Part shown: piece by piece, positions 502 to 21,020 of the stretch | Layout: every line of letters begins with the position of its first letter | Numbering within the stretch: the stretch's first letter is position 1 | Virus record (IMG/VR): IMGVR_UViG_3300025086_000268 | Coordinates: 1 to 22,749 of that record | Source: a virus | Direction: 5' to 3' (one strand) | DNA: 22,749 bases | Notes under the pieces: generated by a model | Told to the model about the DNA's origin: nothing | The model's database searches: none | The model's input: the letters and a program-made list of their open reading frames with translations, nothing else | Translations under genes and position numbers: made by a program

Positions 502-3500
502 TCTGCCTCCCTGTCTTCTCTACGAAGACGCTCAGTAATCAGCCGTGTTGTCCTGCCAGCCTCTACAAGCGCTGCATATTTCTGCCTATAGTCCTCAAGC
601 TTAGAGTTGTAATTCTTAACTCTGCGCTGACGCTCGGCGCGTGACAGTGTTTGGTCTTTCAGAACCCGACGCCTTGCTGCGAGTACATCATTACGCTCTT
701 TCTCCAAATACGTTAACGACAATCTTATTTGTCTAGGATCTACATTGGTTACGTTTAAACCAATCATACGCATCAATGCTTGACCCATAGTGTCGCCATC
801 AACACCGCTAGCTTTTTTACCGCCGCGCAATGCGGTGTTTAGTTTAGATACTGCACCGTATTCTGTGTTCAAAAATCCCGGCAAGACATATTGATTAGCC
901 GCCCAAAACATAGCGTCGGTAAGCTTCCCACGCTTATAGAATGGGCGCTCCATAGCGTTTTCTATGTACATAGGATCTGATGGATTGACTATCGGACGCT
1001 GTGTAAACGGATCAAGATTCTGTGATGCGCCAAACAACGACCACGCAGGGCCACCAAACATGCCCACTAATGAGGTTACATCTTTAACGCTGAAGCCCTG
1101 ATCTTCTGCTGCCTTTGTGCCTGTTGCAGTCTTAACACCAGCGGCTAGGTTTGCTCCTAGGCCAGACAGCGAACCCCAAGGATACAGATAGCTTGTGTCC
1201 ATAAACTGCAAGCGACCTTGCGCATCTCTAGCTGGCAACGGTATGAGGCCGGGATTGTTCCTTAAATAATCAGGCAACGCCTTTTTAACTTGATCGTACT
1301 CATCATCGTCTATATCAAACATCGACATAAACAATGACGGCAGTGCATAGCTAAGGGCGACATATGGCGCAAACTTAGTTGGGTTGCGCAATGCAGTCTT
1401 TGCCAATACTGGTAGAACTTTGTACTGGAACGTAAGGAATGGGATACCCAAGGGGCTTTGTCGCAATCCACGCACAACCTGTGGGACATCAGAGTAATCA
1501 AACAGATACTCTTGAGCCTTCAAGAATGCATCGTCTGCCGAGCCGCCCTGTCGCTCCATTACATCTATAGCTATTGCAGTCTTACCTACAACCTCAATGC
1601 CTTGATATATGTTGCTGGCTTTATTTGCCAATCGCGTCCATGTGTTCAGCTTGAGCCAACCCAACAGCCCAATATCTTTTGCATCAACTGACTTCAAGAA
1701 TTCAAGCATGTCATCGGACATCTGCATAAGCTCTTGATCAGTAAATGATGACTGCTGTACTCCCCGCTTCAACATCTCTGCGAAGTGCTTAGAGTTTTCA
1801 AAGTCATTGTTTCTGTACGCAACGATCTCTCTCGCAGCCTCAATCATGCGAGGAAGAACGCGATGGAATGGTACACCTGACAGGTGAATCAGTATGGCGT
1901 TACTGAAAGTGTTACGCGCAATAGTCGGCGGGTTGAGCGGAACCTTAATGGTTTTCCAAACAGCCGTAAATTTGCGGCCCTTAGACATGAGATTAACGTA
2001 TGCCTCATCGCCCACGTTGAGCATTGCGCCTGATGAAACGACATCATCATAGATCTCTGTTCGCACTAACCGTCCAGCAAGCAGACCATATTCTCTCGTT
2101 TTAGGAACGCGCTTGTATTGATTGCCGTACTGCTGGAGGGCAACCGATATATCCTTATTAGGATCAGTCAAGTATTCCGATAGGCCGCGCTCTTCAAACG
2201 TGGTTATTACAGCCTGTTCCATTTGATCTGCATCATTGCGGAGTCTTGCTGCTCGCTCTGGTTCTGCTGATTCTAGCGCCGTTGCTATGTCACGCAGCGT
2301 CTGCACTTCGTTTATAAGATAAAAGCCGCTGACATTAGATGGCTGTCCGTTCTCATCTGGCGGGCCATACGGAACCAGAAACTGATCGTCATTAGTAGTC
2401 CAGTTCTTGTTCTCAGATACAGAGTTCATCCACTCTATAAACTGCAAGTCCCTTACTGGTCGCTGTATGGCGCGAGAAACTAGGAACGCAGGATCAAGCT
2501 CATTGATTGCGCCCAACGCCTCTTGTGCTTCTGGATCTAAATCTTTTCTTTGTTTGAGATAGCTGAACTTAGCGTCCCGCTTATCCTCAAGTACATGCTT
2601 CAAGTACATACGCGGCAAGTATGACCGCTTGTTCTCAAAGTATGTCTTGGCTGGTAGCAACCCAGCATTCATAAGCTCACCACCAAGACGCTCAATCATG
2701 TCTTTAGCTTTAAACGCTGCTGAAGCTGCCCGGTTGTCTAGCGCTTGAAGCTGTTTAAACAGTGCATCTTCTTGAGAAGGCTCACCTGTAGTCATGTACT
2801 GGTAGATAGTGCTACGCAAAAGCTCCGTAGATTGTCGGTTCTTTGAACCCTTACGGGTCAGGAACTTGTTGCCAATCTCATCTCTAAGGTATTCAGCGAT
2901 CTTAGAGGATCGCGCCACAACGCCAAGGTACTCTGCTCGTGACAGGTAAAACTCTTTCTTATCTGGCATCGCCCTTAGTGTATTGAAGAAGGGCAAGTTG
3001 TTGATGAAGTCTATTCCGTTCTGACGGGCGTTCTTGAATACGCCTCGCAAGTCATCGGTGCCTTTGTTTGTAGCCTCTACGCGATCATTCTCTTTACGGG
3101 CATAGTATATTTCTGATGCTTCTTGCAATTGATCTGATGAGCGCATGTCATCAGTGATCTCAAATGTGCGTAACTGGTTTCTCTGGGGAGATGTGGCAAT
3201 TGCATATCGTTGTGTTACTTCACCAAAGTCTTCTGCTGAAAACTCTGGATCTCTATCCCTATAGTAATCTTGTGTCGCATCGCCTTCGATCAGCGCTGCT
3301 TGTAGGGCTTTTGCTTCTGCCGTGTCTTGCCCTATTGGTCGGCTACGGCTACCAGCAGAGGCAGCAGGATCATCGGTAATGTCAACAATTGTTGCTTCTT
3401 CAAAAGGAATAACATCGCCCATCCCTGTAAGCTCAGTATTTCCTGTTCCGACGTATAAACGCTTATTTTTATTTGTGCGCTTTATCTCATCTTTAGCATT

Positions 3501-6500
3501 CTTAACTTGCTTTCTTGACGTTCCAAGCAGTCGAGCCATTGCATCCTGCAAAAACTCTGGCATTTTTTGGTCGTAAATATTTTCAAACCCACCACCCACA
3601 GGCAAATCAATAGCGCCTGTGGTTCTGTCTTTGGCTTGCCGTATAGCAGGAACATCAAGCAAGCTTTCCGATTGAGCCTCTTGCGGGGTGAGCTGCTCTC
3701 CTCGCTCCTTCTTTGCTTTGAGTTGCTCTAGTTGAGTAATCTTTTCTTGTACGAAGGACACCAAGTTTGAAGCATAAAATCCTGAACTCGTACCCATCTC
3801 ATCCAATACAAGTTTGGATATGTTTTCTCCAAGCCAATCGTTTACGTTGAGATTGATTGCGTTATCAAACGATAACCTAGAATCCTTATCGCCTAACTCA
3901 ATAGTGCCTCTGTAAAAACTGCCAGAAAAATACTCGCCTTCATTACTCACGCCCTCTACTGGCTGCGTATATGAAGCAAGAATCTTCTTTGGTATTAGCG
4001 GGTTTCGCTCTATAAGCGCTTGCGCCATTGACAGCGCAACAACATCATCAGATAGGGCTTCTGAAGACTCGTCAAATTCTGACTTAATAGCTCTCTCTGC
4101 TGCTTCCAGATCAAGATAAGTAGAACGCGCCAACAAATTTGATGTTTTTTGCTTGGCACGCGGATTAAAAAGATCTTCAACCCGCTCAAAAGCTTGGCTA
4201 ATTGCCTGATCAGCATATTGACTTTTTTCTTCCTGCTCTTGAAATGCGTCTTGACCAAGGGGCATTCCACCTAAAGCCTCTGCTTGAGGAAAGGATAGGT
4301 CTTGATTTATATCTAACTCTACTGGAGTAAGTAACCCTATGTTTTCATTAAGCCGCGCTAAAACGTCTTCTTTGAAAAGAATAATGCCATCCTCTTCCAT
4401 TGCATCAATTTCTTTGTCAGTAAATCCTAGATCCTTAGCGCCACCCAGTTCATCTCGGACAACCCTAAACAACACAGAGCCATCTGGGTTCATGGTTGAA
4501 GGCCGCATCACCTTTTTAGGCAATGCATTTAACACCAACCCATCAATGTGTTCTTTTATACCGTTGCGATAACGCTCTACTTGCATCTCGCTATTTGATA
4601 TTGCTATTTGATCATAGCCATTTTTAACAGCCATCTTTGTAAGCATATCCATAGCAAATGCTAGGCGTTGATTTTCGTTTTTAAGCGGAAGATCAGGGAC
4701 TGTTATGCCATAAACTTTATCTTTGTATCCATCAACAGCTTGTCGTACTAGCTGTTTTTCTTCCCTGTTTAAACGGTCAAAGTTGTCTGATGAAATCTGG
4801 CCATTAAGATACATATCTCTTGCTGCAAGCGCCTTCATCTGGGTTTGGGCGCTTTGGTGGAGATCCGACTGAATCTCCTCAACAACAAGAACCATAGACC
4901 CATCATCTAAAATAATGTCTGACACTCTCATGTGCATAAGAGGGTTTCGTATATCTGGGAAGTGACTGTGATACCAGCCGTCTCCAGCCACTGAAGGCAC
5001 AGCTAAAACAATTTCTCTGTAGTTTTGTTCTTGCTTTGTAATTGGAATAGCTATTTCGTTTTGTGGTATTTCTCTGCCGCCCATCGTTGTATAGGCATAA
5101 TAAAAGTTAGGCTGGTCTACATCTAATGGATCTATGCCGCCTTCAGAACCAAGGCTAATTTCTGTTACTATCGAATCTGGGGTTATTGATACGGCGCGTT
5201 CTTCTGTTTCTCGGAGCTGCTGACCTTTGTAGCTATTTTCTACAAGAATTTGACCAAATAACCTTTTATCAAATCCAGAATTTGGATCTTTAATTTCTAA
5301 AGTCAACGCTTTAACAAGCTCTTTACGCTGACCATCAGTAGGTTCAGCAAATACACTGATTTCATTTAGCGCCGATTGAATACTTTGTGGTAGTGCTGGG
5401 CCATCTACAGACTTATTAGGCACGCTGTCGTTAGTTGACAGGTACATCTTTAGTGGCTCAATAACATTCATTGCAAACTTGTTGAGGCGCAACCCAACCA
5501 TTGCTTGATTGGCTACCTGATTAAATGCTTGGTTGTTTCTATCTTCTTGTAAAGCCGCTCGATACGCAGCCTCAGATCCTGTGCCATCACCGCGATCTAT
5601 TGGCCTTCCATAAACCTGTATTTCAACAATCTGCTCAATGTCAGACACATGATCTAACAACTCCTGACCTGATACAGCCTTATCTTGGGGCAAGGTTGCC
5701 AAGAATGACGCGAGCCTAGAGTCGTTAAACTCCTCTATCTTAGTACCTTGGAGTATTCCTGATAGCTGATCTTCGCCTTTGGCGTTCTTTTTAATAGTAG
5801 CCCACGCTTCTGGCAACGCTTTCTGTGATGCTTTGCCCTGCAATGTGCCAACAAGTCGAGACTTTATCTGTGGCCTAGCTTCTGTTACTGCGGCTGCTGG
5901 CCCCTGCTTTATCATGTAAAGCGGTGTAGATGCAGATAGACCTGTCGCATCAAACTGGCTTGTTGCTTGTGGTAAGCGCCTTCCTACGCGACCTTGGCGT
6001 ATCTCCTCAAAGACTTGCTCAATCTCAGCGGGTCTGCCTTCCCCAGCAAATGAAGCCTTAATCTGTTTAAACAGCTTTGCAATCTTGCTGAATACCCTAC
6101 GGAGTCCGGGGTTGAACTCTTTTGGCACCTTGCCATCTACGTCTAAGCCGCGATTGTATAATGCAGAGCCATACGCTATTAGCTCGTTAAGCTTTCGCTC
6201 CGGTGTAAGCCCATCAAAGGCGCGACCATACTCTGTTGCGCCCAAGTGATTGGATACAATGCCCTGTAACCTATCTATGTTGGCCGCAAGATCTGCCTTA
6301 TCTTTATCTGTAAGGTAGTTGTTGTTGTACAGAAAGTGCGTGGCTTCGTGGTATGCGCGGTTTTGTGGGTCAAGAAACCCATCAGCTAATGACACGGCTA
6401 CTATGTTGCCAGCCTGTAATCCCAATGCTTCTTCCATTGGGTATACAACGCCATCAATCTCTACTTCGTTTTGATTTGCTTCGCCGCCCCTACTAGGCCC

Positions 6501-9500
6501 ATAAAGCTGGCTAGCCACCACCAAGTTAGCTTCTGGGGCAATAGAGTTTACTATCGCCTTAACTCGGTTGAAGTCGTTTATATCTAATGGCGCTTTGCTT
6601 TTAACAATTCCCGGCCCATCAGGAGTTGCAGTGACCTGAGTCCCTTGTACAACACCAGTATCTTGAAGCCCTTCCTTGCGAAGAAAATCAATGTCATCAA
6701 GATCAGACATTTCGTCTTCTTGATTTGCAGCCTCAATAAGATCTTCATTCGTTTCCAAGGCATCCAATGCCCCGTTGTGATCTTTTCCTTGCGCCCTTTG
6801 TTCGTTGTAGGCTGCTAAGGCTAGCCCCTGCAATGATTGAGATGCAGTTTTTTCGCTCAACAATAATGAATTAACAAATACCGCAACGTCATTTTTTTCT
6901 TTAGCGCTTAATGCTTTTTGTTTTTTAGTCTGTAGACGCTTGGCTGGCTTTGCTTCTGGCTCCGCTTCCACTACGACTTCTGGCTCTGCCTCTACTAAAA
7001 CCTCTGGAGTCGCATCAGCTTCTGGCGTAGGCACTGGAAAGCCTTCTAGCCTTTCCTTCATGCCAACAATGTTGACTTCTGGTGTGGCTACTTCGGGTAC
7101 ATCAAATTCGCTTCGGCCATCTTTATTAGCCGCCTCACCTCGCTCTTTGACTGACTGCCGCACCAACTGACCCAAACTACGAATCTCTGAGTCAGAAAAC
7201 TCTCCTTGCCCACGGTCAAGATACTTGCGTAGCTCGCCCATGATCTGATCATCTGCTTTGGATTTGCTTCTTGGGTTGCCGACTATGTACAACGCCTTGT
7301 CTAGTTGCGACTCAAAGACAGGCATTGCGCTTTTATATCGAGGCTTAGAGTCCTCTACTGTCTTAGATTGAAATGGCTCTTGGGTTGTTTGCACCTCTGG
7401 CGCGGCTTCTATTTCAGGAGCGGCCTCTACTTCAGGCGCTACCTCTACCTCTGGAACAGCCTCTGGCTCTGCTGGCGGGATTACGACTTCATCTTGGTCT
7501 TCGTCTAAGGCTTCCTCAAACGCAGGGGCAGAGCCGTCTACGGCCTCTGTAGTCGGCCCTAACGCCTGTTTAATCTCATCGGCTTCTGCTTGCCTTGCTG
7601 CTTCATCAGCCACCCGCTGCTGCTCTGCTGCTTCTGCTTTAGCTTTTTGCGCGTCTTGATAGCCAAACGCTTTATCCATTAACTGCGCTTTTTGCGCATT
7701 ATCTAGGTCAGCTAGTGATGCACCTTCTGCCCCAGCAACTTCATCAATCAGCCCCGCTTGCGCCTTCTTGGGAACCCTACCGCGTTTAAACGCTGCCTTT
7801 ATAGCCTTGTCTTCTATGTTGTCGTAGCGCTCAACATCTTTGTCACCGGCTACTCTGCCAATAACAGTGTCAGTATCGTCACCAAGAATACCGCTAATAA
7901 TTGGATCGCTTGCTTCATCTGCGTTCTCTCCAGAATCAATGACCCCAGCCTCTTCATCAGTAAGTTGCTTGTCATTGTTTGCCGTAGGCATGTTGCGCTC
8001 ACGGCTTGGGTTTCTTCTATCAAGCTCCGCTTCAATTGCTTTTATGTCATAGGCTGTCTTTGCAGTGACTTGAGCGGTGCCATCCTCTGCTATGTTCATT
8101 GCTTCTACAGCTTCCAACACAGACAGCTTGCCAGCATCTACATCAGCTATAAGCTCTGGCGGCAAGAACGCTCGTAGCTTCGCCTCCTCTAGCTCCTGCG
8201 CTGTTAGCGAGCCGACATCACGGCCACCAACTTGATAGCGAGGAGTAATAAGATCGGCATCTTTTGCAAACGAAAGCCCTTGATCTTCTGAGGGAGCTTG
8301 GTTTAGCGGCACATAAACTAGCTCATCATCAATAAGCACCTTGGCATCGTCACCCTCTGTGCCAATAATCTGGCCAGATAACTGATTGCCATCAGCATCG
8401 TATACAGCTACTGCCGTCTCGTTTCTTACTGCGTCTTGTATAAACTCATCATCAAGAGGAGCTAACGGAGTAGAGTCCTGATACTCCTTGGTGATCTCTT
8501 TGTCACTCTTGGGGTAGCGAACTTTGCCGCGTGTAAGCAAATCAAATATGCCACCAGCACCCGCTCCATAACCAAAGTCAGACAGCATACTTTCGCCAAT
8601 AGGCATGTCTGGGTTGTAGTTGAGCTTGGCAGCAGTCTCTTGAAGTATGCTAGAAAACGCTTCCTGTCCACCCTCACCGATGCCTGTGGTTCCAGCCTCG
8701 CCTAAACGACGAAGTATCTGGCTCTTTGTGGCTCCAGCTATACCATTAGGTATGCCTCGCAACACCATTTCAGGGGCAAGCAATTCAAGGAATCCAATAG
8801 GAACACCAAGAGCAACTGCAAGATTACGTTGCCCTACGGTGTAATCATTGCCAGCAGCCTTATATGCCTCAAGCATGGCGCTTGATTGACCGGCACCAGC
8901 AGCGCCAGCAAACGTCCATTTAAGACCGTTTAAACCCTTGGCCAACCCAAGCGCTCTTCTTGATGCGTCAAGATATTGCGGCCCTTTAGCGGCTAATGCG
9001 GCTCCTCTAGCCAAAGCTCCTGCCTGACCCAAGCCGGGAAGGGCGAAAGTAAAGATACTTCCAACACCCTCGGCAAGCTTTCCAACCATGCCCTCTTCAT
9101 TTCCAACGTACCGCTTTGCTTCTTGTATGTTCTGAAATGTCTCAGACGTTTCTGGATCTAATGCGTCTTCATACCCAGCAATGTTACTAACCATGTCTGC
9201 CATCGAAAACAGACCTTCAGCCATGCTAAGACCTGTTTGCATAGCACCACGAGCTACACCACGAGGAACGGCGTACAGGCTATCGTCTGTGCCTTCAAAC
9301 ATACCTGTGCTACTAGGAGGCGGCTGAGTAGCATATGGTGAATCAAACGCTTGGAATAAATCTAAGGCTGTTGTTGGCTCAGGTATGGGCTGTGATGGCT
9401 GCACAGGTTGCTGCACAACAGGTGCTGGCTGCATTGGCGCACCAGACGCTATATCTAAGAAACTTCCTTGCTGTACATCAGGAATGTTTATTTGCTGGGG

Positions 9501-9614
9501 GGCAAGCGACACATTTAGGTCTTGCGGTAGCGCATCGAAACTAGACCGCAAGCCCTGTGGTGGGCCTTGCAGCCTATTGATTAACTGCTGAATCCTTTCT
9601 TCTTGTGTAGCCAT
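498..9614 (-). CDS. Giant multidomain virion/ejection protein with zincin motif and LPD38-like C-terminus (3038 aa)
   Basis: A single uninterrupted 3038-aa frame. Parts in order: Pro/Gln-rich N-terminus (to ~100); Gly/Ala-rich hydrophobic stretches (~180-360) containing a GEGGQEAF motif common in phage giants; charged coiled region (~600-690) with (A)PEVE repeats at ~713-745 and ~868-890; a metallopeptidase-like HEATH at 1089-1093 with a possible third zinc ligand in NELIAY (Glu1144); a phage polyvalent-type domain marked by GWYHSHFP (~1547), VEEIQSDLHQ (~1578-1587), EMQVERY (~1676) and GGGFENIYDQKMPEFL (~2007-2022); and a C-terminal region (~2550-2770) resembling LPD38 (RNTFSNA, FDYSDVPQ, IPFLTFQYK). 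A basic coiled tail ends the protein. Its place between two repeat-rich proteins and the holin matches T7 gene 16, so ejection into the host is inferred. Start: ATG in a TAATG overlap with the preceding gene; no Shine-Dalgarno, so coupling is likely. Confidence 0.8.
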   Translation of the reverse strand: MATQEERIQQLINRLQGPPQGLRSSFDALPQDLNVSLAPQQINIPDVQQGSFLDIASGAPMQPAPVVQQPVQPSQPIPEPTTALDLFQAFDSPYATQPPPSSTGMFEGTDDSLYAVPRGVARGAMQTGLSMAEGLFSMADMVSNIAGYEDALDPETSETFQNIQEAKRYVGNEEGMVGKLAEGVGSIFTFALPGLGQAGALARGAALAAKGPQYLDASRRALGLAKGLNGLKWTFAGAAGAGQSSAMLEAYKAAGNDYTVGQRNLAVALGVPIGFLELLAPEMVLRGIPNGIAGATKSQILRRLGEAGTTGIGEGGQEAFSSILQETAAKLNYNPDMPIGESMLSDFGYGAGAGGIFDLLTRGKVRYPKSDKEITKEYQDSTPLAPLDDEFIQDAVRNETAVAVYDADGNQLSGQIIGTEGDDAKVLIDDELVYVPLNQAPSEDQGLSFAKDADLITPRYQVGGRDVGSLTAQELEEAKLRAFLPPELIADVDAGKLSVLEAVEAMNIAEDGTAQVTAKTAYDIKAIEAELDRRNPSRERNMPTANNDKQLTDEEAGVIDSGENADEASDPIISGILGDDTDTVIGRVAGDKDVERYDNIEDKAIKAAFKRGRVPKKAQAGLIDEVAGAEGASLADLDNAQKAQLMDKAFGYQDAQKAKAEAAEQQRVADEAARQAEADEIKQALGPTTEAVDGSAPAFEEALDEDQDEVVIPPAEPEAVPEVEVAPEVEAAPEIEAAPEVQTTQEPFQSKTVEDSKPRYKSAMPVFESQLDKALYIVGNPRSKSKADDQIMGELRKYLDRGQGEFSDSEIRSLGQLVRQSVKERGEAANKDGRSEFDVPEVATPEVNIVGMKERLEGFPVPTPEADATPEVLVEAEPEVVVEAEPEAKPAKRLQTKKQKALSAKEKNDVAVFVNSLLLSEKTASQSLQGLALAAYNEQRAQGKDHNGALDALETNEDLIEAANQEDEMSDLDDIDFLRKEGLQDTGVVQGTQVTATPDGPGIVKSKAPLDINDFNRVKAIVNSIAPEANLVVASQLYGPSRGGEANQNEVEIDGVVYPMEEALGLQAGNIVAVSLADGFLDPQNRAYHEATHFLYNNNYLTDKDKADLAANIDRLQGIVSNHLGATEYGRAFDGLTPERKLNELIAYGSALYNRGLDVDGKVPKEFNPGLRRVFSKIAKLFKQIKASFAGEGRPAEIEQVFEEIRQGRVGRRLPQATSQFDATGLSASTPLYMIKQGPAAAVTEARPQIKSRLVGTLQGKASQKALPEAWATIKKNAKGEDQLSGILQGTKIEEFNDSRLASFLATLPQDKAVSGQELLDHVSDIEQIVEIQVYGRPIDRGDGTGSEAAYRAALQEDRNNQAFNQVANQAMVGLRLNKFAMNVIEPLKMYLSTNDSVPNKSVDGPALPQSIQSALNEISVFAEPTDGQRKELVKALTLEIKDPNSGFDKRLFGQILVENSYKGQQLRETEERAVSITPDSIVTEISLGSEGGIDPLDVDQPNFYYAYTTMGGREIPQNEIAIPITKQEQNYREIVLAVPSVAGDGWYHSHFPDIRNPLMHMRVSDIILDDGSMVLVVEEIQSDLHQSAQTQMKALAARDMYLNGQISSDNFDRLNREEKQLVRQAVDGYKDKVYGITVPDLPLKNENQRLAFAMDMLTKMAVKNGYDQIAISNSEMQVERYRNGIKEHIDGLVLNALPKKVMRPSTMNPDGSVLFRVVRDELGGAKDLGFTDKEIDAMEEDGIILFKEDVLARLNENIGLLTPVELDINQDLSFPQAEALGGMPLGQDAFQEQEEKSQYADQAISQAFERVEDLFNPRAKQKTSNLLARSTYLDLEAAERAIKSEFDESSEALSDDVVALSMAQALIERNPLIPKKILASYTQPVEGVSNEGEYFSGSFYRGTIELGDKDSRLSFDNAINLNVNDWLGENISKLVLDEMGTSSGFYASNLVSFVQEKITQLEQLKAKKERGEQLTPQEAQSESLLDVPAIRQAKDRTTGAIDLPVGGGFENIYDQKMPEFLQDAMARLLGTSRKQVKNAKDEIKRTNKNKRLYVGTGNTELTGMGDVIPFEEATIVDITDDPAASAGSRSRPIGQDTAEAKALQAALIEGDATQDYYRDRDPEFSAEDFGEVTQRYAIATSPQRNQLRTFEITDDMRSSDQLQEASEIYYARKENDRVEATNKGTDDLRGVFKNARQNGIDFINNLPFFNTLRAMPDKKEFYLSRAEYLGVVARSSKIAEYLRDEIGNKFLTRKGSKNRQSTELLRSTIYQYMTTGEPSQEDALFKQLQALDNRAASAAFKAKDMIERLGGELMNAGLLPAKTYFENKRSYLPRMYLKHVLEDKRDAKFSYLKQRKDLDPEAQEALGAINELDPAFLVSRAIQRPVRDLQFIEWMNSVSENKNWTTNDDQFLVPYGPPDENGQPSNVSGFYLINEVQTLRDIATALESAEPERAARLRNDADQMEQAVITTFEERGLSEYLTDPNKDISVALQQYGNQYKRVPKTREYGLLAGRLVRTEIYDDVVSSGAMLNVGDEAYVNLMSKGRKFTAVWKTIKVPLNPPTIARNTFSNAILIHLSGVPFHRVLPRMIEAAREIVAYRNNDFENSKHFAEMLKRGVQQSSFTDQELMQMSDDMLEFLKSVDAKDIGLLGWLKLNTWTRLANKASNIYQGIEVVGKTAIAIDVMERQGGSADDAFLKAQEYLFDYSDVPQVVRGLRQSPLGIPFLTFQYKVLPVLAKTALRNPTKFAPYVALSYALPSLFMSMFDIDDDEYDQVKKALPDYLRNNPGLIPLPARDAQGRLQFMDTSYLYPWGSLSGLGANLAAGVKTATGTKAAEDQGFSVKDVTSLVGMFGGPAWSLFGASQNLDPFTQRPIVNPSDPMYIENAMERPFYKRGKLTDAMFWAANQYVLPGFLNTEYGAVSKLNTALRGGKKASGVDGDTMGQALMRMIGLNVTNVDPRQIRLSLTYLEKERNDVLAARRRVLKDQTLSRAERQRRVKNYNSKLEDYRQKYAALVEAGRTTRLITERLRREDREAE
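506..511 (-). promoter_or_regulatory. Ribosome binding site of the holin
   Basis: GGGAGG on the minus strand, four bases before the ATG at 501 and inside the 3' end of the giant gene. It is one of the better ribosome sites in the window, so the holin can be translated independently of the 9-kb gene before it. Confidence 0.6.
753..760. repeat. GTTTAAAC palindrome, copy 1
   Basis: Inside the giant gene, read as GGT TTA AAC (Gly-Leu-Asn, near residue 2953). Confidence 0.85.
2753..2760. repeat. GTTTAAAC palindrome, copy 2
   Basis: Inside the giant gene, read as CTG TTT AAA CAG (Leu-Phe-Lys-Gln). Palindromy extends to ctGTTTAAACag. A one-mismatch copy (CTTTAAAC) lies 45 bp away at 2708-2715. Confidence 0.85.
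4767..4774. repeat. GTTTAAAC palindrome, copy 3
   Basis: Inside the giant gene, read as CGT TTA AAC AGG (Arg-Leu-Asn-Arg). Confidence 0.85.
6065..6072. repeat. GTTTAAAC palindrome, copy 4
   Basis: Inside the giant gene, read as CTG TTT AAA CAG (Leu-Phe-Lys-Gln), the same four codons as copy 2 in an unrelated part of the protein. Palindromy extends to ctGTTTAAACag. Confidence 0.85.
6183..6350 (-). other. Gluzincin-like active-site region inside the giant protein
   Basis: This segment encodes residues ~1089-1144. It holds HEATH, an exact HExxH zinc-binding and catalytic motif preceded by NRAY, and 51 residues after the second His a NELIAY segment whose Glu1144 could be the third zinc ligand, as in gluzincins. 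Upstream lies a predicted beta-strand, NIVAVSLADG, as often precedes HExxH in zincins. The motif is seen directly; peptidase activity, perhaps for cutting host wall crosslinks or virion proteins, is inferred. Confidence 0.6.
6945..7013 (-). repeat. EAEPEV acidic-proline repeat, second block
   Basis: Codes for residues ~868-890 of the giant protein (ATPEVLVEAEPEV, then VVEAEPEAKPAK). It is a second low-complexity linker of the same style about 120 residues after the first, bracketing a small globular segment (~750-850). Confidence 0.7.
7380..7478 (-). repeat. (A)PEVE acidic-proline repeat, first block
   Basis: Codes for residues ~713-745 of the giant protein, about five units of the form APE(V/I)E(A/V). 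It is probably a flexible extended linker between the N-terminal coiled part and the rest. Confidence 0.75.
7784..7791. repeat. GTTTAAAC palindrome, copy 5
   Basis: Inside the giant gene, read as GCG TTT AAA CGC (Ala-Phe-Lys-Arg). The palindrome extends to gcGTTTAAACgc. Confidence 0.85.
8928..8935. repeat. GTTTAAAC palindrome, copy 6
   Basis: Inside the giant gene, read as GGT TTA AAC GGT (Gly-Leu-Asn-Gly). Confidence 0.85.
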
Positions 9615-11803
9615 TAAGGAGTAAGGTTATATGCAAGTATTTTCGGATTTAAGAAACTATTTTTTGGTCGTTGATAGAATCGCTTGTATGCGGCACCTTT
9701 ATCTTTAGCCGTTGCTAGATCAAAAAGATCTTCTGCATATTCATCTAACACCGCCATATCACCTATTGCGCCTTCTGCTTGATGCTTGGCTTCTAGCGCT
9801 GCTCGCGCTGCGGCCATTCTTTCTTGCGGATCAGGTATTTGCTTGGCGAGTCTATTGTACTCTTTGCTTAAATCAGAAACGACACGCTTTAATCCTTTAT
9901 TGATATTCGCCTGTGCGCCACGGACATATTGATTTGCGTAACTGTTACCAATGTCATTGGCCAATACCCTTTGCTCTGGGACAATCTTAGAGTCTTGATC
10001 AACCTTGTTTGCAGCTATTCCAAAATCATCTCTATTCTTCGTAGCGGCACGAACATCATCTCTAAACTTGTCGTATTCTTCACGACTGATATTGTTTCTA
10101 GCTAAAACGTCAGCTTGGTTAGCTTTATCAACATCAACATTAAGGCGCATTGCATCGTAGTAACTATCTTGCTGCATCTTCGCCACTTGATTTCTAGCAG
10201 TTCTATTGGCTGACGCAATTGTTGCTTGGAAAGTTTGAGCGTCAGTAATCTTCTTCATTGCGTTTTCTTGTCGTTTAAACGCAGTGTTGGCTTTGCCTTG
10301 CTCTCTTTGATACTCAGCTAGGGCGTGTGCATAAAGTTCTTTCTGCTCTTCGCCTGTCATCTTGTTCATAACGCCAGCAGCACCAGCCAATCCTTGAGAC
10401 ATCGCCGTAATAAAGTCTGGGCTTTTACTTCCAGCCGCTTGAAAGAATGCTTGGGCCATGCCAAGCGACGTTTGTTTCTTCAAGCGATCTTTAATGTTTT
10501 GGCGGGTAGGCAAGTCTTTTTCCAAATCCGCGAGCTTTTGGACAGAAGCGTCTACCTCTTTGTTATATTTCGCCTCTCTTTCTTGGAGAGTTTTCAATAA
10601 ATCACCCTGCAACCCATTAACGGTAACTTGTGAGCTTTGCATTTGCCTTAGAAGCGCAGCATCTTTTGAGTACTGTGGGCTTTGCTCGTATGGAACTACC
10701 TTGCTAATTGGATTGTATAAGGCGTTAAATGGCCGCGTAGCTTGCGCAATAGCGACATCTGGCGACGTAAACGTATCAGCTTGAGTGCCAGACTGCCCAC
10801 CTTGTGGCCCAGAGACAGCGTTCATATATGCTTGAGCGCTTGGTGTTATTTGTTGAGCGCCACCCTGACCAGAAACAGCGTTCATGTATGCTTGAGCGCT
10901 TGGATTAACTGTTGACGCTGTGGTAGTTGCTTGGTTAGGAGGATTGTTAGCAGCAGCGGCTGTATTTGCAATAATGCTAGAAGCATAATTTTGCATCGTT
11001 GGAGAAGACAGCTGTTGCATTGTAATAGGCTGCTGAGTCGCTCGATAGTCAACTGCTTTTTGTTGTGACGCTGAATACGGAGTAAGGTTTGGTTGATCGC
11101 CCGGATCGGCAAAACCAAGCACCCTTCCGGTTCGTCCAGACATAAGGTCTTTTGCTACATTGCCCAAAAGCCGTGGCGCAAACATAACAGCATCAGTTGC
11201 CGCGCCTACCGGAGATCCCAACAAAGCAGAAGCGCCCCTATTAATAGTCCTTCTATCATTAATTGCTTGCAATACATCCTGTTGCTCTACATCCGAAAGC
11301 AAAGCAAAAGTATCGGGTGTGTATCCTTCCTCTTCTAATAGTTGTAATCCTATGGTTCCCTGACTACCAGCTTGGAATCGGCGTATTAAGCCACCGCCCT
11401 GCATTGCAGGAATACCACCTCGCGCTGCAAGCGCAGCCAACTCAGGTGAAATACCTTGAGGCATAGGCGCACTAGGCGCTCCTCTGGCCATTAGAGCCTG
11501 TCTACCGGCAGCAGCACCCTGCGCCATAGGTGCAGCTTGCGGGGCCTGTGGGGGCATAGGTTGGCCCATAGGAGGCATTTGTGGTGCAGCTTGGCGGTTA
11601 GCCATATTGATAAGCTGATCCACTACAGGAGGCATCTGTCCTTGCTGTGGCATCTGCGCATCTTTGCGTATATCGCTACGGGCTTTCATTTCGCTTGCAG
11701 CAATCACACCTTCAATGCCGCCAGCTTTTGCAAGCTGTGCAAGCGCCTGATCAGGCAAGTCCTCAGTCCTGTTAGCAATCCTAAGTAGGTTTTCCATTGC
11801 CAT
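9614..11803 (-). CDS. Internal virion-type protein with long coiled-coil region (729 aa)
   Basis: I do not recognise a named family. Residues 1-130 are Met/Pro/Gln/Ala-rich (repeated MPPQ and APMxQ). A motif found in other proteins here, MQGGGLIRRFQAG, sits at ~133-145. A Gly/Ala/Ser/Gln linker (~240-350) contains a duplicated PSAQAYMNAVSG. From ~385 to the end the protein is mostly helical and charged, consistent with coiled coil. It lies between a repeat-rich coiled-coil protein and the 3038-aa giant, the position of T7 gp15, so an internal virion or ejection role is inferred. Only 11 bases separate it from the previous gene: TAA, GGC, the palindrome GTTTAAAC, then the ATG. TAAGG nine bases before the ATG may act as a weak ribosome site. 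A second ATG lies two codons in. The stop forms TAATG with the giant gene. Confidence 0.75.
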   Translation of the reverse strand: MAMENLLRIANRTEDLPDQALAQLAKAGGIEGVIAASEMKARSDIRKDAQMPQQGQMPPVVDQLINMANRQAAPQMPPMGQPMPPQAPQAAPMAQGAAAGRQALMARGAPSAPMPQGISPELAALAARGGIPAMQGGGLIRRFQAGSQGTIGLQLLEEEGYTPDTFALLSDVEQQDVLQAINDRRTINRGASALLGSPVGAATDAVMFAPRLLGNVAKDLMSGRTGRVLGFADPGDQPNLTPYSASQQKAVDYRATQQPITMQQLSSPTMQNYASSIIANTAAAANNPPNQATTTASTVNPSAQAYMNAVSGQGGAQQITPSAQAYMNAVSGPQGGQSGTQADTFTSPDVAIAQATRPFNALYNPISKVVPYEQSPQYSKDAALLRQMQSSQVTVNGLQGDLLKTLQEREAKYNKEVDASVQKLADLEKDLPTRQNIKDRLKKQTSLGMAQAFFQAAGSKSPDFITAMSQGLAGAAGVMNKMTGEEQKELYAHALAEYQREQGKANTAFKRQENAMKKITDAQTFQATIASANRTARNQVAKMQQDSYYDAMRLNVDVDKANQADVLARNNISREEYDKFRDDVRAATKNRDDFGIAANKVDQDSKIVPEQRVLANDIGNSYANQYVRGAQANINKGLKRVVSDLSKEYNRLAKQIPDPQERMAAARAALEAKHQAEGAIGDMAVLDEYAEDLFDLATAKDKGAAYKRFYQRPKNSFLNPKILAYNLTP
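10273..10280. repeat. GTTTAAAC palindrome, copy 7
   Basis: Inside the 729-aa gene, read as GCG TTT AAA CGA (Ala-Phe-Lys-Arg). Confidence 0.85.
10809..10903 (-). repeat. Duplicated 35-bp unit, 60-bp period
   Basis: Two near-identical copies start at 10809 and 10869, differing at two of 35 bases, and encode PSAQAYMNAVSG twice. They look like a recent in-frame duplication inside the low-complexity linker of the 729-aa protein. Confidence 0.8.
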
Positions 11804-11811
11804 GTTTAAAC
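11804..11811. repeat. GTTTAAAC palindrome, copy 8, at a gene junction
   Basis: Fills eight of the eleven bases between the 690-aa and 729-aa genes. On the minus strand the order is TAA stop, GGC, GTTTAAAC, ATG start with no base between palindrome and start codon. Confidence 0.9.
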
Positions 11812-11814
11812 GCC

Positions 11815-13887
11815 TTACGCAGCTAAGTTAGCAGCGCCCATTAAGAAGTTAAGTAGTTGCGCGTTTTGATTCGGAGCAGGGCCGGACGTTGTTTGTGTCT
11901 GTCCAGCATATGCAGCAGGGTTCATGCCTCTCAACAAGTTAGAGAAGAATGCTAGCTGTTGCTGCGGATAATCACGCTGCGCTGCAAAGTCTGCGTATTG
12001 CTGATCAAGTATTGCTTGCTGATCTGCTCTCTGCTGTGCGCCAAGCGCGTTCAATGCGCCTATTCGCTGTAGATCCAACGCTTGCTCTGCCTTGTCTACG
12101 CCAAGTCCTGCTGCTGCGGCAGCGTCTTGTCTGCGTAACGCCTCGGCATATGCCTTCTGATTTGCCAGCGATGCTCGCAGTGACTGATCACCTGCAACTT
12201 GTGCGGCTTGCTCTGTAAGCCTAAATGCGTCTAATCCTTGCGCTCCCGCTGCTTGTTTGGCGGCTTCAGTCAATCTAAATGCATCAAGTCCTTGCGCCCC
12301 TGCCGCTTGTTTTGCAGCTTCGCTTAGTCTAAATGCATCAAGTCCCTGCGCTCCTGCTGCCCTTGACGCTTGATCTTGTGCAATCTGAGCTTGCAAACTT
12401 TGCGCTCCCGCTGCTCGCAATGCAGCATCACCCATCTGTTGAGCTTGAAGCGTCTGAGCGCCCCCCGCTCTTAGGGCTGCATCTGCTAACTGTTGTGCCT
12501 GAAGCGTTTGCGCACCACCGGCTCGTGCCGCTGCATCTGATGCAATCTGCGCTTGCAAACCTTGCGCTCCAGAAGCTCTTGCTGCTGCGTCTGCTAACTG
12601 TTGCGCTTGCAATGTTTGAGCGCCTCCAGCCCTAGCCGCTGCATCTTGCAACTGCTGTGCTTGTAATGTTTGTGCGCCAGCCGCTCTTTGTGAAGCGTCA
12701 CTTAACTGGGCTGCGGATAAACTTTGTTGACCAGCAGCGCGACGCGCAGCATCTGATGCAATCTGTGCTTGTAGGTCTTGTGCACCAGCAGCCTGACCAA
12801 ATCGTGCGGTTGCTTCTTGCGCAGTAAGACCAAGCCTTGCAGCTTGTAAATCTGATGCATCACTAAGCTGCTGTACACGCAAGTCTCTATCAACATCCGC
12901 TGTAGCAAGACCAACAGCCTTATCAAATGCAGCCGCCCTTTGTTTTGCTTCAAGATCACCAATGGCTCTATTAGCCTGATCTGCGGCTGTTAGCCTAGCC
13001 AATTGACCTCTACTGCCAAATGCTCCAGCGCCACCAGCTTGCGTTCCAGCTAAATCACGTTGAGCTTGCTGTGTATCAAACTGCTCTTGCGCTCTTGCTG
13101 CTGAACGATCTAGTACATCTTCAAGGTATGGATTTTGATATTGATCAACACGATCCATTACCTGTTGCGCCTGAAACTGGCGAGGATCATAGCTTGAGGT
13201 AATGTTGGCACCCTGAAAGCCTGATGTTATTGCAGCAGGATCTGTGTATGAAGACGTTACCTCCCTACCACCATACCCAGAACCAAATGCTTGGCTTGCG
13301 GGATCATACCCTGATGCAAATGTTTGAGCATTTGGATTATATCCCGACGCAATTGTTGACCCAGCATATCCAGATCCAAAATCCGATTTTGCCGGAGCAT
13401 AGCCCCCGCCAAATGTTGATGCCGTTGGGCTATAGCTGCTAGCAATAGTTCCCGCAGTATATCCAGATGCATCAGTTGTAGGGGCCGTATATCCAGCAGC
13501 GCTGGTTGTGGGAGCTGTATAGCCAGCAGCATCAGTCGTAGGCGCAGTATAGCCGCCTGACGCCGATTGATAATCTGGCCCTACAGGTAAGCCTGTTACG
13601 GGGTCTGTTCCTATCTGGCCAGCATAATAGCTTCTAGCACTCGTCATTCCCGGCAAGCTTCTACTAGCTAAACTTGTTATTCCTTGGAATGCAGCTTGTT
13701 GCTCTGGAGTATACGCAGCAGTACGTTGCCCCTCATACGGGATGTACTCTTGCTGCATGAGGGCATCGCCCGACTGCATTACTTTTTGCAGATAGGGGTA
13801 AAACTCTTCAGGTATATTTGTGTTAGTTACTGTAGTCGATACATTTTGATCGACAGTACCTCCGCCGCCACCACTACTACCGCCCAT
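11815..13887 (-). CDS. Repeat-rich virion protein with GY repeats and eleven 18-residue helical repeats (690 aa)
   Basis: No named family recognised. It begins with MGGSSGGGGG and a segment around PEEFYPYLQKVMQSG typical of marine phage virion proteins. Residues ~112-234 are ~12 short units each starting with GY, SY or GF (for example GYTAPTTDAA). Residues ~235-365 are helical and charged. Residues 366-563 are eleven consecutive 18-residue repeats of the form AAGAQxLQAQxLxDAAxR, with a degenerate twelfth. The C-terminus is Gln/Ala-rich helix ending in NFLMGAANLAA. An 18-residue all-helical Ala/Gln repeat suggests a long rod or bundle. It occupies the T7 gene 14 position, so an internal virion role is inferred. 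The start is firm: GGAGGT five bases before the ATG. The first 11 bases overlap the end of the GNAT-like gene. Confidence 0.78.
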   Translation of the reverse strand: MGGSSGGGGGTVDQNVSTTVTNTNIPEEFYPYLQKVMQSGDALMQQEYIPYEGQRTAAYTPEQQAAFQGITSLASRSLPGMTSARSYYAGQIGTDPVTGLPVGPDYQSASGGYTAPTTDAAGYTAPTTSAAGYTAPTTDASGYTAGTIASSYSPTASTFGGGYAPAKSDFGSGYAGSTIASGYNPNAQTFASGYDPASQAFGSGYGGREVTSSYTDPAAITSGFQGANITSSYDPRQFQAQQVMDRVDQYQNPYLEDVLDRSAARAQEQFDTQQAQRDLAGTQAGGAGAFGSRGQLARLTAADQANRAIGDLEAKQRAAAFDKAVGLATADVDRDLRVQQLSDASDLQAARLGLTAQEATARFGQAAGAQDLQAQIASDAARRAAGQQSLSAAQLSDASQRAAGAQTLQAQQLQDAAARAGGAQTLQAQQLADAAARASGAQGLQAQIASDAAARAGGAQTLQAQQLADAALRAGGAQTLQAQQMGDAALRAAGAQSLQAQIAQDQASRAAGAQGLDAFRLSEAAKQAAGAQGLDAFRLTEAAKQAAGAQGLDAFRLTEQAAQVAGDQSLRASLANQKAYAEALRRQDAAAAAGLGVDKAEQALDLQRIGALNALGAQQRADQQAILDQQYADFAAQRDYPQQQLAFFSNLLRGMNPAAYAGQTQTTSGPAPNQNAQLLNFLMGAANLAA
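12199..12792 (-). repeat. Eleven tandem 54-bp units encoding 18-aa helical repeats
   Basis: An in-frame tandem array within the 690-aa gene. Every unit is exactly 18 codons with an invariant or near-invariant G-x-Q core. Units fall into subtypes: three consecutive AGAQGLDAFRL(S/T)E units at the end read by the ribosome last, and AGAQTLQAQQL(A)D or GLQAQIASD units before them. Shared subtypes suggest growth by unequal duplication. There are no spacers, so it is not a CRISPR array. Confidence 0.9.
13186..13554 (-). repeat. Array of ~10-11-residue GY repeats
   Basis: Codes for residues ~112-234 of the 690-aa protein. The first three units (GYTAPTTDAA, GYTAPTTSAA, GYTAPTTDAS) are nearly identical; later ones keep only the aromatic start and a small or polar body (SYSPTASTFGG, GYNPNAQTFAS, GYDPASQAFGS). 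It is low in charge and probably beta or disordered. Confidence 0.85.
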
Positions 13888-14371
13888 ATGCCACCTCCAT
13901 CAGTGGTTCATCAGCTTCATGCAAGTCATCTTCTTCTACTTGCTCTGTCAATTTTCCTATTGGCTTAACCATAACAACATACTCTTTAAAAAAGCCATGT
14001 CGTTTAAACGCTTTTTCCATACCGGGAGCAGTTGATGTTTCTAGTCCATCAAGGCCAAGCGTTTGTGCAAACTTCTCAACCACATCGTATGCTTCCGATG
14101 CCCACTCTTTCAGACGATTGCCACTAAGAGTGTTTAAATCTAAATATGTTTTTCTTGGGTATGTATTTACACCGCAAATAAAAAACCCAAGCGCGTTTCC
14201 GTTCTCTCTTACTATCCACACAAAGTATGGAAGCTCTAGTAGTTGATGAAGTATATCCGCAGTCACATAACGCCCATGACTACGTCGCTCTAAGTTTTCT
14301 GCGTAATGAGCAACCTCACCCCAAACTTTTAAAATATCGTCCTTCTTAATAAGTTCAATATCGAACGCCAT
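13877..14371 (-). CDS. Degenerate GNAT-fold protein, T7 gp13-like (164 aa)
   Basis: The 164-aa product has the layout of a GNAT acetyltransferase: an N-terminal helix pair, strands at FVWIVRENGNALGFFICGVN (~52-71) and TYLDLNTL (~76-83), a central helix (EAYDVVEKFAQTLG), then MEKAFKRHGFFKEYVVMVK (~119-137), the usual GNAT C-terminal helix and strand. The acetyl-CoA pyrophosphate loop (Q/RxxGxG/A) is not visible, so catalysis is doubtful. T7 gp13, an internal virion protein, is of this type (DUF2833 or Phage_T7_Gp13), and the gene sits where gp13 would be, before two ejection-protein candidates. The role is inferred from fold and position. The ATG at 14371 directly abuts the palindrome GTTTAAAC; AAGG ten bases upstream is a weak ribosome site. 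A second GTTTAAAC (14002) lies within the KAFKRHGF codons. Confidence 0.7.
   Translation of the reverse strand: MAFDIELIKKDDILKVWGEVAHYAENLERRSHGRYVTADILHQLLELPYFVWIVRENGNALGFFICGVNTYPRKTYLDLNTLSGNRLKEWASEAYDVVEKFAQTLGLDGLETSTAPGMEKAFKRHGFFKEYVVMVKPIGKLTEQVEEDDLHEADEPLMEVAYGR
13893..13898 (-). promoter_or_regulatory. Ribosome binding site of the 690-aa virion protein
   Basis: GGAGGT on the minus strand, five bases before the ATG at 13887. It is one of the strongest ribosome sites in the window and fixes the start despite the 11-base overlap with the preceding gene. Confidence 0.65.
14002..14009. repeat. GTTTAAAC palindrome, copy 9
   Basis: Inside the GNAT-like gene, read as GCG TTT AAA CGA (Ala-Phe-Lys-Arg), codon-for-codon the same as copy 7 in an unrelated protein. 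A one-mismatch copy (GTTTAAAT) lies at 14132-14139. Confidence 0.85.
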
Positions 14372-14379
14372 GTTTAAAC
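14372..14379. repeat. GTTTAAAC palindrome, copy 10, supplying a stop codon
   Basis: On the minus strand GTT TAA ends the 126-aa gene and the final AC is followed directly by the ATG of the GNAT-like gene. It is the only copy in the third reading frame, the one that creates a stop. Confidence 0.9.
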
Positions 14380-20494: not shown

Positions 20495-20797
20495 CTAGTT
20501 CTGCTTCAGCATTATCTCTATTAATTGCTGAAGTTTCTGATCTGATGCCTTCGCTGTCTCGGACTGCTCCGCCAATGAATCGACGATAGCCTCGATCTTG
20601 CTCGCATTGACTGCTGCTAATTTTCCCGTGGCTTGTGCCTCTTCAACTGTTTTTTCTACTACAGCTTCAATACGATCCACTTCTTCTTGTGTAGCCTGTG
20701 CTTGCGCCTGACTAGCGCCCCATACAACAGCGCCCGACAGTACAGCTAAAAACGCTGGCAATGCCCACGTTGGGACTCGAATTCCTTCTTCTGACAT
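20495..20797 (-). CDS. Single-TM coiled-coil protein, possible i-spanin-like or holin accessory (100 aa)
   Basis: The N-terminus has a short charged start (MSEEGIRVPTW) and one hydrophobic helix (~10-28, ALPAFLAVLSGAVVWGASQ). It is followed by about 65 residues of Ala/Glu/Lys/Gln-rich helix with heptad-like spacing (VDRIEAVVEKTVEEA, KIEAIVDSLAEQ, KLQQLIEIMLK), a probable coiled coil on the outer side of the membrane. Type II membrane proteins of this plan include inner-membrane spanins (Rz-like), but no partner lipoprotein with a clear lipobox is seen nearby, so this is only one option. A very strong AGGAGG (20803-20808) five bases before the ATG indicates high expression. That site also encodes the last Gly codons of the upstream gene. 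Confidence 0.7.
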   Translation of the reverse strand: MSEEGIRVPTWALPAFLAVLSGAVVWGASQAQAQATQEEVDRIEAVVEKTVEEAQATGKLAAVNASKIEAIVDSLAEQSETAKASDQKLQQLIEIMLKQN

Positions 20798-20798
20798 A

Positions 20799-21020
20799 TC
20801 AACCTCCTAAAAACTGCGGGATCAAAATGCTCCCAATAATTAAAATAATAATTCCATAAAGCATGCGGTCTTGTTTATCAAAACGTCTAGAGCCATCGTT
20901 TAAACGCTCCTCAATACGCAGGTAACGCTGCTCACACACTTGCTCGTGAGTAGAGATCTGGTTCAATGCCTTATCACCGTTGTCCAAGCTCCATTCCTCT
21001 GCCATCGCTAGATAGCACAT
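20799..21020 (-). CDS. C-tail-anchored small membrane protein, XhlA-like plan (73 aa)
   Basis: A charged N-terminal ~50 residues (THEQVCEQRYLRIEERLNDG, RRFDKQDR), probably coiled coil, are followed by one hydrophobic C-terminal helix (MLYGIIILIIGSILIPQFLGG, ~53-73). The same plan is seen in XhlA or haemolysin-type phage proteins that work with holins, but sequence similarity cannot be judged here. The start is uncertain: the ATG at 21020 lies two bases after the previous stop (TAACTATG), and a second ATG five codons later (MAEEWSLDNG) is equally plausible; neither has a clear ribosome site. A GTTTAAAC copy falls in the ERLNDG codons. Confidence 0.65.
   Translation of the reverse strand: MCYLAMAEEWSLDNGDKALNQISTHEQVCEQRYLRIEERLNDGSRRFDKQDRMLYGIIILIIGSILIPQFLGG
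20803..20808 (-). promoter_or_regulatory. Strong ribosome binding site of the TM coiled-coil protein
   Basis: AGGAGG on the minus strand, five bases before the ATG at 20797. It is the best Shine-Dalgarno in the window and overlaps the final Gly-Gly codons of the upstream membrane-protein gene. Confidence 0.7.
20898..20905. repeat. GTTTAAAC palindrome, copy 13
   Basis: Inside the 73-aa membrane-protein gene, read as CGT TTA AAC GAT (Arg-Leu-Asn-Asp). No further copy is seen to the right edge. Confidence 0.85.

Follow-up and report, generated by a model that had tools for sequence, protein, structure and literature searches.

An iterated octamer of tailed phages and its association with a ribbon-bearing SprT-like protein

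The palindromic octamer GTTTAAAC occurs in 13 exact copies in a 22,749-base virus fragment from IMG/VR (record IMGVR_UViG_3300025086_000268; the whole stretch analysed, hereafter the window), and its sequence conservation indicates that this iteration is real and under selection. Comparison with other phages pointed to a partner for the word, a C-terminal module of a SprT-like protein that we term the ribbon, whose presence tracks either GTTTAAAC or a sister word, GTGTAAAC (jointly GTKTAAAC, with flanks Y...R). On the strength of these comparisons, we consider it probable that the two words are sites of the ribbon protein, which would be a repressor that controls its own gene and has stoperator-like sites spread over the genome. 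Taken singly, the proposition that the ribbon is the binder of the word appears very likely, and the proposition that the ribbon protein represses is favoured on balance.

Iteration and conservation of the octamer

A preliminary description of the window had listed the 13 copies, and every coordinate was borne out, as was the spacing of about 1.7 kb (mean 1,679 bases, coefficient of variation 0.37). The expected number was 0.41 from 100 dinucleotide shuffles, the largest of which gave 3, and 0.80 from a third-order Markov model. No other palindromic octamer in the window exceeded three copies, and one-mismatch variants of GTTTAAAC showed no excess there (10 seen against about 9.6 expected). 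The genes of the window are late genes of a tailed phage, including a holin, a 3,038-amino-acid (aa) protein, a stabilization-type virion protein and a tail fibre protein.

Because the window is a fragment, the whole-genome count was made on its relatives instead. The longer contigs of the clade hold 38–48 copies in 42–54 kb, and counts far exceeded the Markov expectation in long relatives, with 48 copies in 54.4 kb (2.1 expected), 40 in 45.6 kb (1.25) and 38 in 42.5 kb (1.3). These contigs carry the word genome-wide and more densely in early regions, so that its placing 'across the late region' was right as to presence there and too narrow as to extent. Among 80 relatives' loci of the 616-aa stabilization-type protein, all 32 with at least 72% identity carried GTTTAAAC (154 copies, 8.0 expected), whereas the 48 with at most 51% identity carried 7 copies against 17.8 expected.

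At aligned positions the sites were kept far above the octamer background, which disposes of the concern that they might not be conserved in relatives. In G087, which aligns with the window over 16.0 kb at a DNA identity of 0.91, all 10 aligned sites are intact, as are all 11 in G001 (identity 0.90), against a background octamer retention of 0.57–0.58. G004 keeps 10 of 12 and G005 10 of 11 (background 0.43–0.46), and at identity 0.70 the sites kept were 5 of 8 in G006, 5 of 10 in G008, 6 of 8 in G012 and 4 of 9 in G010, where only 0.07–0.08 of background octamers survive. Inside open reading frames (ORFs), third codon positions under the word were identical in 33 of 35 cases between G006 and G012 (19.5 expected from the same codons elsewhere), in 35 of 43 between G006 and G008 (22.9 expected) and in 27 of 31 between G004 and G006 (16.4 expected). 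Three more pairs lay above expectation, and little excess was seen for G000–G006 (7/13) and G000–G008 (7/12; 5.7 expected each).

The word was also found well beyond this clade. Viral contigs scanned for three GTTTAAAC with 40–70 bases between them gave at least 120 stretches, and the 80 examined fell into several groups, most with 5–38 copies per locus and a few with 3 or 4. In all, at least six separate phage groups, of GC content 0.34–0.62, carry GTTTAAAC in iterated form, some of them distantly related to the window's. Full contigs hold 29–47 copies in 20–38 kb in group B, whose terminase is 49–50% identical to that of Streptomyces phages and which, judged by eye, encodes a WhiB-like protein; 37–54 in 38–63 kb in group C; 26 in 23.5 kb in group D (GC 0.34); 11 in 67 kb in group E (GC 0.55); and 17 in 77.9 kb in Dinoroseobacter phage R5C (GC 0.62). 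Expected numbers for these contigs were 0.4–4.0. The groups are not all unrelated, since a distant stabilization-type protein is common to A, C, D and E, and a distant terminase to A, B, C and E. All groups, with D, E and R5C represented by single genomes, prefer the same flanks at either end of the word (YGTTTAAACR) and have it 1.6- to 5.5-fold in excess outside ORFs. This favours a single binding specificity over a word of the host. Group C carries both words (GTGTAAAC 68 copies against 11.2 expected), and its contigs G023–G025, G027 and G030 also show an excess of ATTTAAAC (47 against 19.7 expected); by these counts, group C looks as if its binding specificity were looser.

The ribbon of a SprT-like protein as partner of the word

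Gene content was compared between word-rich and word-poor phages to find the partner. The most widely shared genes encoded a primase/helicase (groups A–D), a SprT-like protein, a stabilization-type protein and a terminase, of which the last two are present in word-poor phages too. The SprT-like protein (phrog_6361) was found in groups A, B, C and E and also in phage Maureen, which is poor in GTTTAAAC; in R5C, where ORF calls are incomplete, it was detected by tblastn. The ribbon is the C-terminal part of this protein, with the core [KP]Q[GST]TR...C...R...C. Seven SprT/ribbon proteins scanned matched no helix-turn-helix (HTH) family and no zinc-ribbon family at cut-off, and 'ribbon' is therefore a descriptive name.

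Named phages refined the association. INPHARED held 163 records with a SprT-like match, of which 18 were examined. Thirteen have the ribbon, and all 13 hold several copies of one of the two words. GTTTAAAC is found in R5C (17 copies), R26L (20), ep3 (4), Mano (4), Persinger (4) and MQ-4 (6), and GTGTAAAC in Crosby (41), Honk (33), IAmGroot (18), Caron (17), Maureen (17), Percival (14) and 4A (13), the last also holding a single GTTTAAAC. The five phages with a SprT protein that lacks the ribbon have none of either word (Dismas, Armstrong, Eden and Epa5) or one GTGTAAAC against 0.5 expected (CN2), and a control word, the same letters read backward, occurred 0–2 times in the named phages. For 13 of 13 with the ribbon against the five without, Fisher's test gave P=1.2e-4, the phages not being independent. 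The association thus follows the ribbon residues and not the mere presence of a SprT gene. An earlier form of the rule, in which the SprT gene alone predicted GTTTAAAC, failed on Maureen, Crosby and CN2; GTGTAAAC came to light by 8-mer ranking in Crosby after that failure, and the rule was replaced once GTGTAAAC and the absence of the ribbon had been seen. The last six phages were examined after the ribbon rule had been framed, and five had ribbon and word whilst Eden had neither. The first letter of the core was widened to [KP]Q for 4A (KPQGTR); the core reads PKQ in ep3, Mano and three of the last six phages.

Two further samples were picked by protein. In a scan from the protein side, alignment A1 found 495 relatives, and 80 of them were retained; 77 of these were not already among the loci, three of the 77 lying in contigs already studied (G003, G006 and G008). 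Of these 77 loci, 73 had P<0.01 for GTTTAAAC and GTGTAAAC together, and the other four had P of 0.017–0.056. The scan pattern needed a KQ[GTS]TR-like stretch, so that this is a sample of ribbon-bearing forms. A control scan based on ThyX found only the R5C genome itself and was replaced by one based on the terminase, which gave 80 loci; the 37 whose contigs reach 10 kb or more were all tested, leaving aside L546, which is G006. The seven with the protein held 65 GTTTAAAC in 114.9 kb (2, 24, 2, 4, 11, 8 and 14 copies; 5.66 per 10 kb), against 25 in 738.4 kb (0.34 per 10 kb) for the 30 without it (Mann–Whitney P=5e-5). Four contigs of 57–59 kb without the protein held 0, 1, 1 and 1 copies. Conversely, among the word-selected contigs of at least 20 kb (28 among those listed), 21 encode the SprT-like or ribbon protein, five of them by the ribbon end alone.

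Sequence comparison also indicates that the association of ribbon and word is independent of the protease motif. In group B phages G034 and G026 the C-terminal ribbon is all that remains of the SprT-like protein, the word-rich group B copies G022, G028 and L265 have no HExxH, and the match is confined to the ribbon end in G026, G034, G074, G076 and G086.

No ribbon gene was found in the window fragment. In its relative G087, the contig that bears the window's genes (91–92% DNA identity) also encodes a SprT-like protein of 202 aa containing HEFIH and KKQGTR, and its 42.5 kb hold 36 words where 1.52 would be expected. The window's sites are therefore most likely part of the ribbon system. The suggestion in the preliminary description that the octamer could be the site of a phage-encoded DNA-binding protein thus gains support from the way the word tracks the ribbon protein, whereas the HTH partner proposed there gives way to the ribbon module as the better candidate.

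Site positions, proposed mechanism and alternatives

In 10 of the 13 ribbon phages a site lies within −110 to +20 of the SprT start, where 0.52 would be expected (P 6e-13 if sites were random). The nearest sites are at −106 in Crosby, −60 in IAmGroot, −57 in Caron, −39 in Maureen, −27 in ep3, −26 in Honk and Persinger, −25 in Mano and MQ-4, and +10 in Percival. Promoter boxes were loose matches read by eye. A −10-like TANNNT box ends 8 bases before the own-gene site in ep3 (TATAAT), MQ-4 (TATTAT) and Persinger (TACCAT) and 6 bases before it in Mano (TACACT). Maureen has four similar promoters, one of them that of the SprT gene itself, in which TTGCGT, a spacer and a box such as TAGACT or TACTTT are directly followed by GTTTACAC; of its 17 sites, 8 lie at least partly outside genes, in a genome of which 7% is non-coding. 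At the divergent early promoter of clade A, TTGACA is followed by a site. Judged by such contexts, the promoter sites are at operator positions, although a fixed spacing from the −10 box, tested over all groups, gave weak signals.

In the mechanism that we propose, a ribbon dimer would sit on the palindrome, or across the two unequal half-sites of GTGTAAAC, and the ribbon protein would occlude the transcription start of its own and other promoters. At the dispersed sites, whether next to start codons in leaders or within long late genes, it may form a stoperator-like roadblock to elongation. Many short repressor sites, at promoters, in short intergenic gaps and genome-wide, are described for cluster A mycobacteriophages (L5, TipsytheTRex) and Streptomyces phage R4, where stoperators are proposed to halt both initiation and elongation (PubMed Central (PMC) articles PMC9283540, PMC10276819). 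The likeness to L5 stoperators raised in the preliminary description is supported as one of function, the sites being dispersed, in excess outside ORFs and, in Maureen, directly behind −10-like boxes. The components differ. The L5-type system is described as an HTH and Stoperator-domain monomer on asymmetric 13-bp sites aligned with transcription in temperate phages, whereas here the site is an octamer, either a palindrome or its one-letter variant, with largely symmetric flanks and with GTGTAAAC in both orientations; the candidate binder is a SprT-linked ribbon, with no HTH family matched in the seven proteins scanned; and the phages are those of Actinobacteria and Proteobacteria, one of them reported as lytic.

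Several observations weigh against this reading. Most sites are inside genes, where repression is harder to picture. Upstream of the SprT gene, the nearest site is at −293 in R26L, there is none within 300 bases in R5C and 4A, and in 10 clade A loci it lies at −109 or −110 in five and at −389 to −724 in the other five; in G087 it is at −483. Word and protein are also not perfectly coupled. Two terminase-picked contigs with the protein hold 2 copies each, and the terminase-picked fragments G037 and G056 hold 5 and 3 without it. Seven of the 28 word-selected contigs are without the ribbon, six of them with 4–10 copies and one, fragment G029, with 26, which is a serious exception. The 13 and five named phages do not count as independent cases, and by sequence the five negatives look like about two lineages. 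Lastly, R5C is reported as lytic, and its description gives integrase and repressor genes as not found (PMC5454422), so that in such phages the role would be one of timing or genome coating.

The alternative that survives best, though an unlikely one, is self-marking, in which the ribbon would tether a SPRTN-like metalloprotease along the phage DNA to clear crosslinked or inhibitory host proteins, with gene control secondary. The protease motif is indeed well preserved, HExxH standing in all but one of the 25 rows of alignment A3, in the 13 named ribbon phages and in the five ribbon-less ones, and sites spread through genes would suit a tether. The best Pfam score for SprT-like (PF10263) was 22.9 bits, with the cut-off at 25.6. 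An AlphaFold2 model from 25 loci-derived sequences (mean predicted local distance difference test score, pLDDT, 85.6) has an N-terminal domain, a poor linker at 154–159 and a C-terminal part of strands 162–167 and 173–177, a short helix and a last strand. Its top match by VIA-align was SPRTN (6mdw; Z 7.8, root-mean-square deviation 4.2 over 104 residues), a Z below 8 being one that a common or chance arrangement may give, followed by small archaeal metallopeptidases (Z 7.1–7.5). For the ribbon fold, taken within the full-length model, Foldseek gave no clear match (MCM N-terminal domains over about 42 columns, E 0.14). The system thus shares HExxH and, as modelled, an N-terminal fold with the SPRTN/SprT crosslink proteases, for which we know of no sequence-specific octamer network. 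Against a tether as the main role, the protease motif is dispensable for the word association, several word-rich group B phages lacking it or matching by the ribbon end only, and the sites are enriched outside ORFs and at promoters. SPRTN/SprT is described as a DNA-dependent protease (PMC5127644).

Slightly less probable still is that another SprT-linked phage protein, of HTH or replication type, is the binder, the ribbon gene being merely linked and regulated. Clade A does encode an 87-aa XRE protein and a 134-aa double-HTH protein, and the primase/helicase family is common to groups A–D. Both HTH proteins were considered as binders and set aside, as their homologs were detected in clade A only. 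The clade A primase/helicase was unmatched in group E and in R5C, which has its own annotated primase and helicase amid its incomplete ORF calls, and the association follows the ribbon residues, as set out above.

A signal at the RNA level, such as a translational operator or cleavage site, is very unlikely, although many copies stand directly against a start codon or between it and the ribosome site. The commonest word-to-start distance is 8 bases, at which the word abuts the start (7 of 29 in group A, 4 of 31 in B and 4 of 11 in D), as at 11804 and 14372 in the window. Before clade A early genes the word often sits within a longer leader, GTTTAAACGCAACAAnGGAG (e.g. G008 18755, 20727 and 21143), which had 21 exact matches in viral contigs, all in clade A. 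An RNA signal would however fit poorly with a palindrome whose flank preference is largely symmetric, and with the two orientations of the non-palindromic GTGTAAAC in Maureen (5 and 12, where all annotated genes but one are rightward), although the sites there just upstream of genes share one orientation.

The weakest alternative, in which the word derives from the host in the manner of HIP1 or is recognised by a host protein or a methylase, is most improbable, the likeness to HIP1, itself of octamer form, being formal only (an iterated octamer palindrome), since GTTTAAAC is phage-borne and occurs in phages of GC 0.34–0.62 and five host genera (Dinoroseobacter, Achromobacter, Pseudomonas, Serratia and E. 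coli), whereas phages without a detected ribbon gene are mostly without it. Bacterial genomes scanned for the triple word gave at least 117 stretches; among the 80 examined, 49 were array-like, with at least three words in an identical 10-base flank, as arrays of clustered regularly interspaced short palindromic repeats (CRISPR) would be, and isolated words numbered 21 in 558 kb, with no locus holding four or more. In those 49 loci (within L140–L219) the word recurs at a spacing of about 60–75 bases, which looks like CRISPR repeats that hold the same octamer. Bacterial genome contigs scanned with the window's tail protein gave no relative. A PHROGs scan of 40 proteins, 38 from G008 and 2 from G006 (part of their genes), found no methyltransferase, so that the earlier idea of a methylase site gains no support.

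Returning to the ribbon protein as regulator, the small zinc-finger proteins P2 Ogr and P4 Delta offer another comparison, as phage late activators thought to bind inverted repeats at promoters. Unlike theirs, the promoter sites here are at or behind the −10 box, in operator position instead of upstream, and further sites are scattered genome-wide. HIP1 (GCGATCGC) of cyanobacteria, described as a highly iterated palindrome (PMC6604393), is a word of the host genome, whereas the word here tracks a phage gene.

A wider proposition, which we regard as possible and advance tentatively, is that a ribbon on a SprT-like protease, binding GTKTAAAC, makes up a regulatory system of tailed phages for which we found no description. 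It would serve as the missing immunity repressor in temperate Arthrobacter and Microbacterium phages and, in lytic phages, in genome coating, expression timing and protease tethering. Literature searches on GTTTAAAC, GTGTAAAC and GTTTACAC, and on SprT, showed no title or abstract opening on the word in phages among the open-licence PMC papers listed. Such a system would extend over phages of Actinobacteria, Alpha-, Beta- and Gammaproteobacteria and of uncultured groups. Homoimmune lysogens are reported for Powerpuff (cluster AZ), whose authors infer 'currently unidentified repressors' (PMC8758107); this phage, one of the SprT-like matches in INPHARED, has the gene as well. For Percival and Floof, the passages concerned report integrases with no repressor gene identified (PMC7302621). 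The ribbon protein is a candidate for the repressor sought in these temperate Arthrobacter and Microbacterium phages. If our reading is correct, ribbon-bearing phage proteins annotated as 'SprT-like protease', 'transcription elongation protein' or 'hypothetical' would be sequence-specific DNA-binding regulators, and such a regulator could be read from a genome via one octamer. It would also mean that a single operator word has been conserved over phages of very different hosts, and that a DNA-binding module can outlast the protease fused to it.

Sites of the window and neighbouring genes

Six of the 13 copies lie within the ORF of the 3,038-aa protein (498–9614, minus strand). The first (753..760) is kept in G087 and G004 and changed in G008 and G010, and the second (2753..2760) is kept in G087, G001, G004 and G005 and changed in G006 and G012. 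The copy at 4767..4774 is changed in G006 and kept in G087, G001, G004, G005, G008, G012 and G010, and that at 6065..6072 is kept in all eight relatives compared. Further on, 7784..7791 is kept in G087, G001, G004 and G005, and 8928..8935 is kept in G087, G001 and G005 and changed in G004, G008 and G010. This ORF had no PHROG match, and among named phages only two records matched it, weakly and in part; its product is possibly a giant virion or ejection protein.

Two pairs of sites share a gene. Within the 729-aa ORF (9614–11803, minus strand), 10273..10280 is kept in G087, G001, G004 and G005 and changed in G008 and G010, and 11804..11811 abuts the ATG of the same gene, where the minus strand reads GTTTAAACATG, and is kept in eight of eight relatives compared. 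The 164-aa acetyltransferase-like ORF (13877–14371, minus strand) contains 14002..14009, kept in G087, G001, G004 and G005 and changed in G006, G008, G012 and G010; its ATG is abutted by 14372..14379, kept in seven of the eight relatives compared and changed in G010. Between the 115-aa and 753-aa genes, 17035..17042 stands 3 bases behind a TAACAT box on the minus strand and is kept in G001, G004, G005, G006, G008, G012 and G010, the position being unaligned in G087. Just upstream of the 616-aa stabilization-type gene (17552–19402, minus strand), 19412..19419 is kept in G001, G006 and G012 and changed in G004, G005 and G008. The last copy, 20898..20905, lies within a 73-aa ORF (20799–21020, minus strand) and was scored neither as kept nor as changed in any relative compared.

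Some further features of the relatives were recorded. In G008 (L091) the terminase large subunit is encoded by two overlapping ORFs (15510–16346 and 16343–17062, minus strand), both halves matching L131 at 99–100%, unlike the single 509-aa ORF of G003 and G006. A GroES-like co-chaperonin gene (12292–12705, minus strand) lies in the head module of the same contig, and phage DSL-LC04 is also annotated with one. At 12970–13299 (minus strand) G008 (L092) encodes a basic 109-aa protein that is 84–99% identical across the clade, with distant relatives in group B phages; neighbouring small proteins are 56–81% identical between subgroups. R5C (NC_041921) carries queuosine-type genes at gp079, gp082–gp084, gp086 and gp095, namely QueC, QueD, QueE, GTP cyclohydrolase and queuine tRNA-ribosyltransferase, and its DNA presumably may bear a 7-deazaguanine modification.

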